From the NCBI RefSeq assembly GCF_014873145.1, contig NZ_JADBEK010000001.1, positions 4,464,001 to 4,528,000 on the forward strand: 64,000 nucleotides of DNA, in the 5' to 3' direction. The stretch comes from Nonomuraea angiospora. Its GTDB lineage: Bacteria; Actinomycetota; Actinomycetes; Streptosporangiales; Streptosporangiaceae. The position numbers and the translations under genes were made by a program. Shown here one piece after another: positions 1,937 through 64,000 of the stretch (the stretch's first letter is position 1; every line of letters starts with the position of its first letter). The notes beneath the pieces are model-generated. The model was given only the letters and a program-made list of their open reading frames with translations. It was not told the origin of the DNA and searched no databases.

Positions 1937-2677
1937 ATGATGACATTCATGCTGTTGACCGAGATGGCGCCCCCTCCAGGCGCCCAGGAACTGGCCGGGC
2001 TGCGGGCCAGGGCCAGGACCGCCCGCCGCCGGGCCTTCGTCGCGCTCTCCGCCTCGATCGCGCTGCTGGCCACCGCCCAGCTGCTCGCCGACCGGGCGCA
2101 GACGAGGGAGCAGACGCTGCCGCTGGCCGTGCTGTCGCTGGTGGTCTTCGCGGCCGCGGTGCCCGCGCAGGCGATCACGCAGTACGTCTGGGGCACCCAC
2201 GCCCGGCACGTCCACCGTAAGGAGCGCGAACTGTACGCCGCCCCCCGCACCGGCCGCGTGCGCCCCCTCAGCCGGCTGGCCGTGGCCTGCTGCTGGGCGG
2301 TGACGCTGCTGCTCGGCTGGACCGCGCCACGCCTGTTCCGGGAGGCCGCCCTGTACGGCTTCGCCGACTCCCTGGGCCGGGCCACCGAGGCGCTGGCGCT
2401 GATGAGTCTCGCGGCCGGGGTGTTGTTCGTCCTGTGGTGGGCAGGTGACGCGCTGGGGACACTGGCGCGCGCCCTGCGGTCGGGCGGGTCACCTGGCGAT
2501 CCGTGGGACCCCGGCCGAGGCGTGCGCCGGAGAGAGGGCGCGGCGCTCTGGACGGGCGCGGCCGTGGCGGTCGCGGCCCTGGTCGGGGCCCGCGCCCATC
2601 TCTGGGAGCCGGCCACGGCGCTCGTTTACACATTGCTGACCGCCGCCCTCGTCTGCGGAGTAGTTACTGACGAGTAG
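1937..2677 (+). CDS. Membrane protein of unknown function
   Basis: About 246 residues with four to six hydrophobic segments: AFVALSASIALLATAQLLA, LPLAVLSLVVFAAAVPAQA, LAVACCWAVTLLLGW, ALALMSLAAGVLFVLWWAG, and a C-terminal pair. Charged loops separate them. I do not recognise the family. The start is uncertain: ATG codons occur at 1937, 1940, 1949 and 1964, and none has a strong Shine-Dalgarno sequence. The stop codon overlaps the -10 of the fadAB promoter, so the two units are packed closely. Divergent from the LCP gene. Confidence 0.6.
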   Translation: MMTFMLLTEMAPPPGAQELAGLRARARTARRRAFVALSASIALLATAQLLADRAQTREQTLPLAVLSLVVFAAAVPAQAITQYVWGTHARHVHRKERELYAAPRTGRVRPLSRLAVACCWAVTLLLGWTAPRLFREAALYGFADSLGRATEALALMSLAAGVLFVLWWAGDALGTLARALRSGGSPGDPWDPGRGVRRREGAALWTGAAVAVAALVGARAHLWEPATALVYTLLTAALVCGVVTDE

Positions 2678-2680
2678 CAT
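2675..2680 (+). promoter_or_regulatory. Candidate -10 element for fadAB
   Basis: TAGCAT matches the actinobacterial TANNNT -10 pattern. It lies 33 nt before the fadA start and overlaps the stop codon of the upstream gene. No clear -35 is visible. Confidence 0.35.
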
Positions 2681-2713
2681 AGGCACGGAACCCTAACAAC
2701 GAGGAGCGAATCC

Positions 2714-3894
2714 GTGCCTTCCTCTCGTGACGTCGTGTTCGTCGACGGCGTGCGCACGCCCTTCGGCAGGTCAGGACCGAAAGGGCTGTACGCGGAGACC
2801 CGCGCCGACGACCTGGTCGTCCGCGTCATCCGCGAGCTCGTCCGGCGCAATCCCAACCTGCCCCCGGAGCGAGTGGACGAGGTCGCCATCGCCGCGACCA
2901 CGCAGATCGGCGACCAGGGCCTGACCATCGGCCGGGCGGCGGCGGTGCTGGCCGGGCTGCCCAAGAGCGTGCCCGGCTACGCGATCGACCGCATGTGCGC
3001 GGGCGCGATGACCGCGGTCACCACGGTGGCGGGCGGCATCGCGTTCGGCGCGTACGACGTGGCCATCGCCGGCGGCGTCGAGCACATGGGCCGCCACCCG
3101 ATGGGCGAGGGCGTCGATCCCAACCCGCGCTTCCTGTCGGAGAAGCTGGTCGACCCGAGCGCGCTGGTCATGGGCATGACGGCGGAGAACCTGCACGACC
3201 GCTACCCGCACATCACCAAGGACCGCGCGGACGCGTACGCGGTGCTGTCGCAGGAGCGGGCGGCCAAGGCCTACGCCGACGGCAAGATCCAGCCCGACCT
3301 GGTGCCGACCGCGATCAGGACGGCCGAGAAGGGCTGGGGCCTGGCGGTCGAGGACGAGGCGCCGCGGCCCGGCACCACCGTGGAAGGGCTGAGCGCGCTC
3401 AAGACGCCGTTCCGCCCGCACGGCAACGTCACGGCGGGCAACTCCTCCGGCATCAACGACGGCGCCACCGGGTGCGTCGTGGCCGCCAAGGAGGTCGCGG
3501 ACGAGCTGGGGCTGGGCGCGAAGATGCGGCTCGTCTCCTACGCGTTCGCGGGCGTGGACCCCGAGGTCATGGGCGTCGGGCCGATCCCGTCCACGGAGCG
3601 GGCGCTCCGGCTGGCCGGACTGGACCTCTCCGACATCGGGCTGTTCGAGATCAACGAGGCGTTCGCCGTGCAGGTGCTGGCCTTCCTCGACCACTTCGGG
3701 ATCGCCGACGACGATCCCCGCGTGAACCAGTACGGCGGCGCGATCGCCTACGGGCACCCGCTCGCCTCCTCGGGCGTGCGGCTGATGACGCAGCTCGCGC
3801 GGCAGTTCGGCGAGCGTCCCGACGTGCGGTACGGCATCACCACCATGTGCGTCGGCATGGGCATGGGCGGCACTGTGATCTGGGAGAACCTCGC

Positions 3895-3898
<4 letters not shown>
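2714..3898 (+). CDS. fadA: Acetyl-CoA C-acyltransferase (3-ketoacyl-CoA thiolase)
   Basis: This 394-residue thiolase carries out the last step of fatty-acid beta-oxidation, CoA-dependent cleavage of 3-ketoacyl-CoA. The nucleophilic cysteine lies in DRMCAGAMTAV (C95). The later active-site blocks are NEAFAVQ, GHPLASSG with the catalytic histidine, and CVGMGMGG with the second cysteine. Length is normal. The GTG start has a GAGGAG Shine-Dalgarno sequence 8 nt upstream. The stop overlaps the fadB start (ATGA), so the two subunits are translationally coupled. Confidence 0.95.
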
Positions 3899-5985
<2,087 letters not shown>

Positions 5986-58027: not shown

Positions 58028-58153
58028 ATGAAGGCTGTGGTGGTCCTCGCCGTGCTCGTGTCGCGAGGGGCCTGTACGGCTCCTGGCACCCGACCGAGGA
58101 GGAGCGGGGCCAGGCTGAAGCAGATCTTCCCTACCGGAGTGTGTGACTGCTGA
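58028..58153 (+). pseudogene. Possible remnant of a secreted DUF6351-like protein
   Basis: The frame from the ATG at 58028 reads MKAVVVLAVLVSRGACTAPG and ends LKQIFPTGVCDC. The IFPTGVCD motif resembles the C-terminus of DUF6351-type secreted proteins, where it is followed by Y/W-S-K-P. Here a stop follows. Neighbouring frames show broken pieces, so this looks like a degraded gene end. It overlaps the stop of the MFS gene on the other strand. Confidence 0.3.
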
Positions 58154-59363
58154 CGGGCAGCTCGCGCATCGAGCGCAGGGGCGAGGTGACCAGTGGCAGG
58201 AACGCCAGGCAGGCCCCGGCCGCCGCGACCAGGAGCGTGTGCCGCACCCCGATGGCCCCGCCCAGCGCGCCGCCGAGCAGCCCGCCCAGCGGCAGCGTGC
58301 CCCAGACGAGGAAGCGCATGGTGGCGTTCACCCGCCCGAGCAGCGGATCGGGCGTGATGGCCTGGCGGAAGCTGAGCTGGGTGACGTTGTAGATCACCAC
58401 CCCCGCCCCGACGCAGAACTCGTAGATCACGAACAGCCCCAGCCGCCAGTCGGCCGCCATCCATGGCAGCACGAACGTCAGCGGCGCGGGCACGGCTATG
58501 CCCAGCCACATCGCCGGCCCCTGTCCGAGCCACCTGACGACCCGGGCGTTGACCAGCGCGCCGACGATCCCGCCGAGGCCGCCCGAGGCCATGAGCAGGC
58601 CGATGGCGCCCGCGTCCAGGCCGAGCTCCCTGGCCAGGAGGAGCAGGACCATGGGCTGCGCCACGGAGACGAAGAAGTTCGCGGTGGCGGTGCAGGCGGC
58701 GATGCGGCGCAGCAGCCGGTGCCCGAGCACGAGGCGCACGCCTTCGGCGATCTCCCGGCCCAGGCCGGCCCGGCTGGGCTCCTGGCGGGGCTCGTGCCGG
58801 CGGATCGTGCCCAGGCACAGCGCCGACCAGGCGAACCCGGCCGCCGTGGCGGCCAGCGCGAACGGCGCGGTGAGCAGGTGGATCAGGTAGCCGCCCCCGC
58901 TCGGCCCGCCGACCTGGGCCACCGTACGCACGATCTCCAGCGTGGAGTTGCCCTCCACGAGCCGCTCGCGCTCGACCAGGCTGGGCAGGTAGCTCTGGTA
59001 CGCGACGTCGAAGAAGACGGTGAACACGCCCAGCGCCAGCGCCACCGCGTACAGCTGGTGGATCGTCAGCACGTCCAGCCACCACGCGACCGGCACGGAC
59101 GCAAGCGCCAGCGCCCTCGCCCAATCACTGACCACCATGACCACGCGCTTGCGCAGCCGGTCGACGAGGGCGCCGGCGGGGAGCCCGATCACCACGAACG
59201 CCAGCGTCTGGCACGCCGCCAGCAGGCCCACCTCGAACGCGGAGGCCCGCAGCGCCGACACGGCCACCAGCGGCAGCGCCAGCACCAGGAGCTGGCTGCC
59301 CGCCTGGCTGGCGACGTCGGCGAGGAACAACCGGCGGAAGTCGTGATCGCGTAACAGGCTCAC
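58131..59363 (-). CDS. MFS transporter (EntS/MFS_3-like exporter)
   Basis: 410 residues with 12 helices. FRRLFLADVASQAGSQLLVL, GLPAGALVDRLRKRVVM and PDPLLGRVNATMRFLVWG are characteristic of MFS_3 exporters related to enterobactin exporter EntS and macrolide pumps. It is probably a drug or metabolite efflux protein. Divergent from an ArsR-type regulator that may control it. GTG start; the intergenic region is only 57 bp. Confidence 0.88.
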   Translation of the reverse strand: MSLLRDHDFRRLFLADVASQAGSQLLVLALPLVAVSALRASAFEVGLLAACQTLAFVVIGLPAGALVDRLRKRVVMVVSDWARALALASVPVAWWLDVLTIHQLYAVALALGVFTVFFDVAYQSYLPSLVERERLVEGNSTLEIVRTVAQVGGPSGGGYLIHLLTAPFALAATAAGFAWSALCLGTIRRHEPRQEPSRAGLGREIAEGVRLVLGHRLLRRIAACTATANFFVSVAQPMVLLLLARELGLDAGAIGLLMASGGLGGIVGALVNARVVRWLGQGPAMWLGIAVPAPLTFVLPWMAADWRLGLFVIYEFCVGAGVVIYNVTQLSFRQAITPDPLLGRVNATMRFLVWGTLPLGGLLGGALGGAIGVRHTLLVAAAGACLAFLPLVTSPLRSMRELPVSSHTLR

Positions 59364-59385
59364 CCGTCAGAGGATCCCCGACCGA

Positions 59386-59412
59386 TTGAGAAAAATCAAC
59401 CGGTTATAGGGT
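59386..59412 (+). promoter_or_regulatory. Promoter and possible operator of the ArsR/MFS divergent pair
   Basis: TAGGGT (59407-59412) ends 8 nt before the ATG at 59421. Just upstream, TTGA-N6-TCAA (59386-59399) and AACCGGTT (59398-59405) are inverted repeats that could bind the regulator. Confidence 0.4.
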
Positions 59413-59420
59413 GACGGTCC

Positions 59421-59936
59421 ATGGGCACCCAACGCCGCCCCGCCACCGAGGCCGAGGCCCGCGCGCTCGCCTCGGCCGTACGGCTGCGCATCCTGCGGCT
59501 CTGTCTCGACCAGGCGCTCACCAACAAGGAGATCGCCGGCCGCCTCGACGCCAACCCGGCCACCACCCTCCACCACGTGCGCAAACTCGTGGAGACGGGC
59601 TTCCTGGCCGCCGAGCCCAGCCGGCCGGGGCCGCGCGGCTCCACGGAGATCCCCTACCGGGCCACCGGCAAGTCGTGGGAGATGGACGTCCGCGAGAGCG
59701 GCGTGAGCGGGGGCAGCGCGGCGATGCTCGACGCGTTCCTGGAGGAGAGCAGGCTCATCGACCTCGAGCGGGCCGACCTCGTCAGGCTGGGGCTCAGGCT
59801 CACCCCCGAGGGGCACGCGGAGCTGCGCGGGCGGCTGGAGGAGCTGTTGGAGGAGTTTCGCGGGCGGCAGCCGCCGGACGGGCAGGCGTACTCGATCTTC
59901 CTGGCCGTGCACCGCGACGTCACCCGGGACCCCTGA
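59421..59936 (+). CDS. ArsR-family winged-helix transcriptional regulator
   Basis: 171 residues. The helix-turn-helix contains ASAVRLRILRLCLDQALTNK, EIAGRLDANPATTLHHVRKL and VETGFLAAEP, then a wing and PYRATGKSWEM. No metal-binding cysteine pair is visible, so the signal is probably not metal. It is divergent from an MFS exporter and likely regulates it. The ATG follows TAGGGT by 8 nt with no Shine-Dalgarno, a leaderless arrangement. Confidence 0.87.
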   Translation: MGTQRRPATEAEARALASAVRLRILRLCLDQALTNKEIAGRLDANPATTLHHVRKLVETGFLAAEPSRPGPRGSTEIPYRATGKSWEMDVRESGVSGGSAAMLDAFLEESRLIDLERADLVRLGLRLTPEGHAELRGRLEELLEEFRGRQPPDGQAYSIFLAVHRDVTRDP

Positions 59937-59993: not shown

Positions 59994-62513
59994 TCAGCCC
60001 AGGTGGACCTCGACTTTCAGCTCGTCACCATACTCCAAGACGAACTCCTCCACAGTGCCTGCGGCACAAAGGTCGTCCTGAGCTTGGCGGACAAGCCCGA
60101 CTTCGGGCGCCCAAACGGTCAGCCTGGAGACCTCGGCCCGCATCGACAGCTTGGCCTCGGACTTGGCCTTGCGCACCTGACCGAGCACCTCGGACGCCAC
60201 GGCCAGCACGGCCGGGTCGCCGGCCCCGCGCGGCAGAGCGGGCCACGGGGCCCGGTGGACCGACCCCTCGCGCCACCACGACCACACCTCTTCGGTCACG
60301 AAGGGCAGGAACGGCGCGAACAGCCGCAGCAGCACGTCGAGCGCCTGCCGCAGCGCCGCGTGGGCGGAGGCGGCGCCCGGACCGGACTCGTAGGCCCTGG
60401 CCTTGACCAGCTCCAGGTAGTCGTCGCAGAACGCCCAGAAGAAGCGCTCCACGGCCTCCAGCGCCCTGGTGTGGTCGTAGCCCTCGAACGCCTCCGTGGC
60501 CTCGCGCACGACGTCGGCCAGACCGGCGAGCATCGACAGGTCGAGCGGCTCCGTGACCGTGTTCGATCCTGGCCCGTCGCTCTCGGCCAGGCCGAGGACG
60601 AACTTGGACGCGTTGAGGATCTTGATCGCGAGCCGCCGCCCGATCTTGAGCTACCCGGCGTCGAACGCGGTGTCCACGCCGTAGCGGCCGTTGGCCGCCC
60701 AGTAGCGCACCGCGTCGGAGCCGTGCTGCTTGAGCAGGTCGAGCGGGGTGACCACGTTGCCCTTGGACTTGGACATCTTCTTGCGGTCGGGGTCGAGGAT
60801 CCAGCCCGAGATCGCGACGTCGCTCCACGGCAACTGGCCGAACTCGTAGTGCGATCTGACCACGGTCGAGAACAGCCAGGTGCGGATGATCTCGTGGGCC
60901 TGCGGCCGCAGGTCGGCCGGGAAGACGCGCTTGAACAGGTCGTCGTCGCTCTCCCAGCGGCCCGCGATCTGCGGCGTCAGCGACGAGGTGGCCCAGGTGT
61001 CCATCACGTCGGGGTCGGCCATGAACCCGCCGGGCACGCCGCGCTGGTCCTCGGTGTAGCCGGGCGGCACGTCGGAGGACGGGTCGACCGGCAGCATGTC
61101 CTCCGTGGGCACGATCGGCGCGTCGTGGACGGGCTGCCCCGACTCGTCGATCGGATACCACACCGGGAACGGCACGCCGAAGAAGCGCTGGCGGGAGATC
61201 AGCCAGTCGCTGGTCAGCCCCTCGACCCAGTTGTCGTAGCGCACGCGCATGTGCGGCGGGTGCCACGTCAGCTCGCGCCCGCGCCCCAGCAGCCGCTCGC
61301 GCAGCTCCTCGTCGCGCCCGCCGTTGCGGATGTACCACTGGCGGGTGGTGACGATCTCGAGCGGCCGGTCGCCCTTCTCGTAGAACTTGACCGCGCGCGA
61401 GACGGGCCTCGGCTCGCCCTCCAGGTCGCCGGACTCCCGCAGCAGCTCCACGATCCGCTCGCGGGCGCTGTGCACGGTCTTGCCGGCCAGCTCCTTGTAC
61501 GGCTCCCCCTCCACGCCCTCCGGCGCCTCGGCCAGCAGCCGCCCGTCCCAGCCGATGACCGGCCGGGTCGGCAGGTGCAGCTCCCGCCACCAGGTGACGT
61601 CGGTGATGTCGCCGAACGTGCAGATCATGGCGATGCCGGTGCCCTTGTCGGGCTCGGCCAGCCGGTGGGCCAGCACCGGCACCTCCACGCCGAACAGCGG
61701 CGTCAGCACCGACGTGCCGAACAGCGGCTGGTAGCGCTCGTCGTCGGGGTGGGCGACCAGCGCCACGCAGGCCGGGATCAGCTCGGGCCTGGTCGTCTCG
61801 ATGAAGACCGGGCCCTTCTCGCCGTAGAACGAGATCTTGTGGAACGCGCCCGGCCACTCCCGGTCCTCAAGCTCGGCCTGGGCGACGGCGGTGCGGAAGG
61901 TGACGTCCCACAGCGTCGGCGCCTCGGCGAGGTAGGCCTCGCCGCGCAGCAGGTTGCGCAGGAAGGCGCGCTGGGAGACCGCCTGGGCCTCGTCGCTGAT
62001 CGTGGTGTAGAGCAGCGACCAGTCGACCGACAGGCCGACCCGCCGCCAGACCTCCTCGAACGCCTGCTCGTCGAGGGCGGTCAACTGGTGGCACAGCTCC
62101 ACGAAATTGCGTCGCGAGATGGCGATCTCACGTTTGCCGGGCTTGTCCGGTGGCACGAAGTCAGGGTCGTAGGGCAGCGACGGGTCGCAGCGCACGCCGT
62201 AGACGTTCTGCACCCGCCGCTCGGTGGGCAGCCCGTTGTCGTCCCAGCCGATCGGGTAGAACACCGACTTGCCGATCATCCGCTGGTAGCGGGCCATGAT
62301 GTCGGTGTGGGTGAAGGAGAAGACATGACCGACGTGCAGGGAGCCGGACACGGTCGGCGGCGGCGTGTCGATGGTGTAGACCTGCTCGCGCGAGGCGGAC
62401 CGGTCGAAACGGTAGGTGCCCTCGTCCTCCCAGCGAGCTACCCATACCTGCTCCAAGCCGTCGAGGGTCGGCTTTTCCGGCATGGATGCATGGCGTAGTC
62501 GCTGTTGAGTCAT
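59994..62513 (-). pseudogene. valS: Valine--tRNA ligase gene interrupted by one in-frame amber codon
   Basis: The 839-codon frame encodes a ValRS of the type found in streptomycetes. [14 protein letters not shown] carries the HIGH-type motif, [14 protein letters not shown] the synthesis site, and [11 protein letters not shown] the KMSKS loop. A TAG at 60653-60651 (codon 621) follows AFDAG and precedes LKIGRRLAIKILNASK, where relatives have Gln. It cuts off the anticodon-binding domain. Both sides remain in one frame and well conserved. Sequencing error, recent mutation with another valS copy, or read-through are possible. TACCAT 8 nt before the ATG suggests a leaderless transcript. Confidence 0.85.
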
Positions 62514-62591: not shown

Positions 62592-62876
62592 ATGGCGGAG
62601 GACAAGCCCGATGTCGCCTGGCGTCTGATCGGCGGTCTGGTCGGTCTGGCGACCGGCTGGGCGGCGAGGAAGGTCCTCGGGTTCGTCTGGGTGAAGGCGA
62701 CCGGGAAGGAGCCGCCGCTCGACACAGACTCGCCCGAGGTCAGCATGGGGGAGGCGATCGGCTACGCCGTGCTCATGGGTGTCGGCATGTCGGTGGCGCA
62801 GATCGTGGTCAACCGGACCGCCAAGAAGCGTTACGACGCGTGGAAGTCTGTGAAGCAGGTGACTCAAGGGCAGTGA
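62592..62876 (+). CDS. DUF4235 membrane protein
   Basis: 94 residues with two hydrophobic segments ([20 protein letters not shown] and [19 protein letters not shown]). These and the [11 protein letters not shown] end match DUF4235, a small actinobacterial membrane family of unknown role. GGGGAAGGGAG lies before the ATG. Its last 68 bp overlap the 3' end of the convergent otsA gene. Divergent from valS. Confidence 0.85.
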
Positions 62877-64000
62877 GAAACTCGTTGGCCCAGCGGTCCA
62901 CGTCGTAGGTGGCGACCCGGCGGCGCATCGTGCGCATCCGCCGGGCCAGCTCGTGCGGCGTGGCCCGCATCGCGGCCAGCATCTGCCGCTTGACGTCCTC
63001 CACGTCGTACGGATTGACCAGGTAGGCCTGGCGCAGCTCGTCGGCCGCCCCGGCGAACTCGCTGAGCACCAGCGCGCCGTGCAGGTCGTGGTGGCAGGAG
63101 ACGTACTCCTTGGCGACCAGGTTCATCCCGTCGCGCAGCGGGGTCACGACCATGACGTCGGCGGCCAGGTAGAGGGCGGCCAGCTCCGCGTGGTCGTACG
63201 ACTGGTGGAAATACTGGATCGGCTGGTAGCCGAGCTGGGCGTGCTCGCCGTTGATCCGGCCGACCTGCAGCTCGATATCGTCGCGCAGCCGCTTGTACTC
63301 CTCCACCCGCTCCCTGCTGGGCGTGGCGATCTGCACGAACACGGCCTCGTTCGTCTTCAGCCGCCCGTCCTTGAGCAGCTCGCCGAACGCCTCCAGCCGC
63401 TGCCCGATGCCCTTGGTGTAGTCGAGCCGGTCGACGCCGAGCAGCACGTGCTCGGGATCGCCCAGCTCAGCCCTGACCTCCTTGGCCCGCGCCATGATCT
63501 GCGGGTCGCGCACCAGCGAGTCGAGCTGCCCGAAGTCCACCGAGATCGGGAACGCCTGCGTCGTCACCACCCGGTCGTCGAGGAAGATCTCGTTCCCCTT
63601 GTACGGCAGCCCGAGCAGCCTGCGGCACAACCGCCGGAAGTTGGAGGCCCCGCCGGGCAGCTGGAAGCCCACCAGGTCGGCCCCGAGCAGCCCTTCGACG
63701 AGGTCCTTGCGCCACGGCAGCCGCCAGAACAGCTCGGTCGGCGGGAACGGGATGTGCAGGAAGAACCCGATCCGCAGGTCCGGCCTGAGCCTGCGCAGCA
63801 TGGCCGGGACGAGCTGGAGCTGGTAGTCCTGCACCCAGACCACCGCGCCCTTCTCGGCGGCGTCGGCGGCGGCGTTGGCGAAGCGCTCGTTGACGGCGCG
63901 GTAGGTGTCCCACATCGCCCGGTCGAACACGGGCGGCGCCACCACGTCGTGATAGAGCGGCCAGAGCGTGGCGTTGGAGAAGCCCTCGTAGTACAGCTCC
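62809..64000 (-). CDS. otsA: Alpha,alpha-trehalose-phosphate synthase (UDP-forming), 5' part beyond the window
   Basis: The visible 396 residues belong to GT20. [18 protein letters not shown] starts at the window edge, followed by [42 protein letters not shown] (UDP-glucose contact) and [13 protein letters not shown] (donor-binding acidic and Lys residues). It makes trehalose-6-phosphate from glucose-6-phosphate and UDP-glucose. The start lies to the right of base 64000. The C-terminal tail (about 20 residues, [15 protein letters not shown]) overlaps the DUF4235 gene on the other strand. Confidence 0.92.

Follow-up and report, generated by a model that had tools for sequence, protein, structure and literature searches.

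The alt_ValS-type valine--tRNA ligase gene of Nonomuraea angiospora is interrupted by an in-frame amber codon, and a second, canonical valyl-tRNA synthetase (ValRS) gene on the same chromosome is intact. We consider this probably a recent nonsense loss of one of two redundant ValRS genes in Nonomuraea. The window analysed here is a 64,000-nucleotide stretch of the N. angiospora genome (G000; other G-numbers denote the other genomes compared), and the features concerned are the following.

59994..62513, minus strand: alt_ValS-type valine--tRNA ligase gene, interrupted by an in-frame TAG; both pieces match NF000540
60654..62513, minus strand: open piece before the stop, 620 codons, with the class I catalytic domain PF00133 and its KMSKS motif
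60651..60653, minus strand: amber codon in frame at codon 621, private to this genome; all 53 other congeneric genomes compared encode Gln
59997..60650, minus strand: open piece after the stop, 218 codons, with the anticodon-binding domain PF08264

The interrupted gene belongs to the alt_ValS family

The amber codon appears as cta on the plus strand at 60651-60653. Counted from the ATG at 62513, the gene comprises 839 codons followed by a TGA stop (59994-59996), with 620 codons open before the TAG and 218 open after it. This start is provisional, as the database proteins of some relatives lack 10 residues (825 versus 835 in N. solani); the in-frame ATG at codon 11 could be an alternative start, which would shift the numbering and not the finding. 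The piece before the stop scored 1181.6 bits against NF000540 over model positions 1-614, and the piece after it, searched for domains, models and structures as 60003-60650 (216 codons), scored 265.7 bits over positions 617-825. Since the two pieces meet at model positions 614 and 617, they represent a single gene carrying a stop without any frameshift, which bears out the initial annotation of an in-frame TAG at codon 621 with the frame intact on both sides. The gene length, the conserved block around the stop and its position after KMSKS also agreed with that annotation. PF00133 reaches residue 617, so that the TAG falls nearly at the junction of the catalytic and anticodon-binding domains, and the presence of PF08264 in the piece after the stop agrees with the expectation that the stop would remove the anticodon-binding domain. 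Among solved structures, the top sequence match of the first piece was the valyl-tRNA synthetase 1gax, and the top structure match of the second was 4xkz, a 269-residue chain of a valine-tRNA ligase, followed by 1gax.

The curated cut-offs are 900 bits for NF000540 (alt_ValS) and 704 bits for NF004349 (canonical valS). The window gene passes the former with its first piece alone and scores 1467.9 bits as a whole frame with the stop read across; against NF004349 it scored 432.6 bits, under the cut-off. Its pieces match in order along almost the whole alt_ValS model, and 839 codons is also the length of alt_ValS in the two nearest relatives. It differs from other members in its stop, because of which no single open frame includes the anticodon-binding domain. 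The window gene is thus a disrupted member of alt_ValS. It shares with canonical valS the enzyme name and the catalytic family PF00133, but canonical valS has a separate model and typically carries a C-terminal tRNA-binding arm, PF10458. In the domain search this arm was present in the canonical gene of N. angiospora and absent from both pieces of the window gene.

Several features adjoin the gene. A divergent pair encoding an MFS transporter and an ArsR-type regulator lies at window positions 58131-59936, next to the 3' end of alt_valS, and a family-20 glycosyltransferase gene, presumably of the trehalose-6-phosphate synthase type, lies upstream on the same strand at 62809-63945. An Rfam search of the window at the gathering threshold returned no match, so no T-box or other leader was found.

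The stop is private to N. angiospora

The initial annotation expected Gln at the interrupted codon. Indeed, the aligned codon encodes Gln in 53/53 other genomes of the genus and in an N. gerenzanensis record, and the disabling change is therefore found in N. angiospora and not in its relatives. The nearest relative, G022, has Gln at the site and 97.6% DNA identity; in G037 and G040, the additional alt-type copy likewise encodes Gln at the aligned codon. A single open frame extends over at least 97% of the aligned stretch in 53 of the 54 relatives (the 53 genomes and the N. gerenzanensis record). The sole exception is G012, which carries its own in-frame TAG in alt_valS at a different codon.

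L013 2878-2880 (G012:C550): in-frame TAG in the alt_valS of G012, codon 460 from the ATG

The open stretch before this TAG spans 461 codons from the previous stop and 459 from the ATG, the frame is otherwise open to its normal end, and the canonical valS of G012 is intact. G012 is a draft assembly in about 590 contigs, and its contamination is estimated at 9%. Within the genus, the alt frame is accordingly broken by TAG in 2/54 genomes (G000 and G012) and open in 52/54. In surveys of 394 and 230 genomes, N. angiospora was the only genome flagged for a stop among the matches listed, and among 584 loci from the GTDB collection the best 80, which are named, showed no break over the parts checked. 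Because 22 of the genus loci match a GTDB-collection locus at >99.5% identity, the two sets overlap.

A second, canonical valS is intact in the same genome

The canonical valS lies at G000:C1:4990223-4992748, ~464 kb from the window gene on the same chromosome, and adjoins clpX (ClpX neighbour, 675.4 bits). It scored 1177.2 bits against NF004349 over model positions 2-860, contains no internal stop, has 857 codons as in most relatives compared, and carries both the HIGH-like motif GVLHIGHA and KMSKS. A second valS elsewhere was among the explanations offered initially, and this gene answers to it. The same annotation had called the interrupted gene an essential enzyme; with an intact canonical valS on the chromosome, the premise of a lost essential function fails. 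We conclude that alt_ValS is redundant in N. angiospora and that ValRS function has probably not been lost.

Both types recur across the genus genomes compared. Canonical valS exceeds its cut-off in 54/54 genomes with a stop in none, and an alt-type match is also present in 54/54. A truncation of canonical valS in G011 was only apparent, the rest of the gene being masked by a run of N. Among 394 genomes sampled from the class, 242 pass the alt cut-off and 183 the canonical one, so that at least 31 pass both. By best E-value, the 41 genomes of the host's family in this sample comprise 21 with alt only, 1 with canonical only and 19 with both, and the 21 indicate that alt_ValS apparently suffices alone in some relatives. 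G343, of the same family as the host, gave a canonical valS match only, which suggests that it has no alt_ValS.

Two of the congeneric genomes, G037 and G040, carry an additional, distant alt-type ValRS frame (~73-74% DNA identity), giving three ValRS-like genes each.

L234 about 2806-5308, plus strand: additional alt-type ValRS frame
L235 about 2163-4614 of the reverse complement: additional alt-type ValRS frame

The stop appears to be recent

Codon changes since the split of N. angiospora and G022 were polarised with G020 as outgroup. The alt gene of N. angiospora acquired 21 synonymous and 9 non-synonymous changes, the stop among the 9, and that of G022 acquired 14 and 5, with 6 changes unpolarised. 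For canonical valS, the corresponding counts were 22 and 7 in N. angiospora versus 15 and 2 in G022, with 13 unpolarised. The terminal-branch ratio of protein to third-position changes was 0.256 for N. angiospora and 0.419 for G012, versus 0.292 for the sum over 54 genomes. Six genomes exceed the ratio of G012, which is thus on the high side and not extreme. Relaxed selection in the N. angiospora alt gene was not apparent (9:21 versus 5:14, with an ordinary branch ratio), the stop being too young for such a test to tell. The substitution pattern of the interrupted copy still looks like that of a constrained gene, suggesting that the stop is recent. Judged from these alignments, both stops are young compared with the species splits, and some relaxation in the alt_ValS of G012 is possible.

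A single wrong base is a rather unlikely explanation

The TAG may instead reflect one wrong base from sequencing or assembly, or a mutation that arose in the culture used for sequencing, in which case the species would have an intact alt_ValS gene; we regard this as possible but rather unlikely. The stop occurs in one assembly, the nearest relative at 97.6% identity is open, and 52/53 other congeners are open over the aligned stretch. Moreover, no second assembly of the strain came to light: the 620-aa product is absent from the best 120 of 7998 protein matches, in a database whose clustering at 90% identity could hide it. Against an error, the assembly is one 13.09-Mb contig with 100% estimated completeness, although its contamination is estimated at 4.65%, and another species, G012, has a different amber in the same gene. 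A miscall at a methylation motif was considered and rejected, as the local five-base motif showed no excess of C>T or G>A changes private to N. angiospora (1 in 641 motif sites versus 402 in 103,291 aligned positions).

The surroundings of the gene also speak against systematic error. Over 140 kb, 93 of 116 G022 gene models have an N. angiospora counterpart, and among these 93 comparable models valS alone has a well-supported internal stop. In-frame stops appeared in the alignments of seven models, six of which were set aside by inspection, a matter of judgement: in g22_9, g22_17, g22_26 and g22_103 the stop falls in a probably over-extended start, in g22_65 it lies past the gene's end, and g22_104 is a doubtful model. 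Four further models (g22_12, g22_16, g22_83 and g22_89) had low coverage in N. angiospora and no stop. Among them, g22_16 represents a diverged copy, N. angiospora's own model and G020 both show g22_83 as continuous, g22_89 has an apparent frame difference near its start in N. angiospora, and only the ends of g22_12 are retained there, apparently after a deletion.

G000:C1 about 4432360-4433015: gene of 875 codons in G022 (g22_12), reduced to its ends by an apparent deletion; positions 4360-5015 of the joined 140-kb stretch

In the reverse direction, g0_57 and g0_84 had one stop each in G022, and both models are doubtful. The comparison is compatible with a single wrong base. Sequencing error, another of the explanations offered initially, thus keeps some probability, and nothing found points to it.

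Read-through and a split protein are poorly compatible with the genome

Alternatively, the amber might be read through or suppressed, with Gln or another residue inserted, and full-length alt_ValS made, perhaps in small amounts. The frame is kept on both sides of the stop with no sign of decay, two species have an in-frame TAG where relatives or the N. angiospora copy have Gln, and tRNA-Gln(CUG) is generally known to read UAG at a low level. We nevertheless consider this very unlikely. Amber suppression was among the initial options, but none of the 65 tRNA genes found by ARAGORN in N. angiospora, which cover 64 Rfam tRNA matches, has a CTA anticodon, although a tRNA too unusual for Rfam would escape such a search. 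Release factor RF1 is present, its match of 497.5 bits exceeding the cut-off, and TAG serves as a normal terminator in the surroundings, ending 27/97 gene models in the 140 kb, the valS piece being one of them. Recoding or suppression is therefore unsupported. None of the other gene models among the 93 compared has a convincing in-frame TAG. Two Gln-to-TAG events are also unremarkable, since a single transition would turn any of the 23 CAG and 27 TGG codons of the G022 gene into a stop.

Among the tRNA genes, a cluster of four (Tyr, Glu, Leu with an AAG anticodon, and Ala) lies at L201 16-380 (G000:C1:1179115-1179479), and its Tyr tRNA is missing from the Rfam list.

We give hardly any credence to a joint reading in which alt_ValS would be a conditional second synthetase, required, for instance, when a natural ValRS inhibitor is present or under stress, and the ambers at Gln codons of the two species would be leaky low-expression alleles and not plain losses. 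In the leaky-allele part of this reading, near-cognate reading would yield mostly truncated catalytic body and a little full-length enzyme.

The position of the stop, almost exactly at the boundary between PF00133 and the anticodon-binding domain, would also suit a split protein, in which the catalytic piece associates in trans with an independently started C-terminal piece. Two in-frame codons, ATG 661 and GTG 688, are candidate starts. However, GGAG lies about 15 bases before the ATG and GGAGG 2 bases before the GTG, neither at the usual spacing of a ribosome-binding site; a start at 661 would drop 39 residues after the stop, and one at 688 would cut into the anticodon-binding domain. In addition, 53/54 relatives checked have one open frame, and the stop is private and young. 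The split protein put forward in the initial annotation is thus extremely improbable.

Consequences for valine charging

Under the preferred reading, a recent nonsense loss, translation would end at codon 621. The product would be a catalytic domain without the anticodon-binding domain and, given the lost domain, would be unable to usefully charge tRNA-Val. The canonical ValRS would then carry out tRNA-Val charging, and the alt copy would be expected to decay. Against this reading, the alt gene is open in 52/54 genomes of the genus and hence probably has some use, and redundancy by itself does not account for the retention of alt_ValS.

Duplicated synthetases with one conditional copy are described for the two TrpRS of Streptomyces (PMC9437257) and for IleRS1/IleRS2 (PMC10485003, PMC4861432). 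These pairs resemble the present one in having two synthetases of one specificity per genome. In contrast, one copy is broken here, and the literature consulted offered no role for the second ValRS. Neither ValRS nor valyl occurs in PMC9437257, and our literature search returned nothing on two ValRS in Nonomuraea or on why 52/54 genomes of the genus keep both genes open.

The intact canonical gene removes the apparent paradox of a stop in an essential gene. In the Nonomuraea genomes compared, two ValRS from different families coexist, and in some related genomes either type occurs without the other. The two amber-carrying species look like natural losses of alt_ValS and could reveal if this enzyme serves a purpose of its own.
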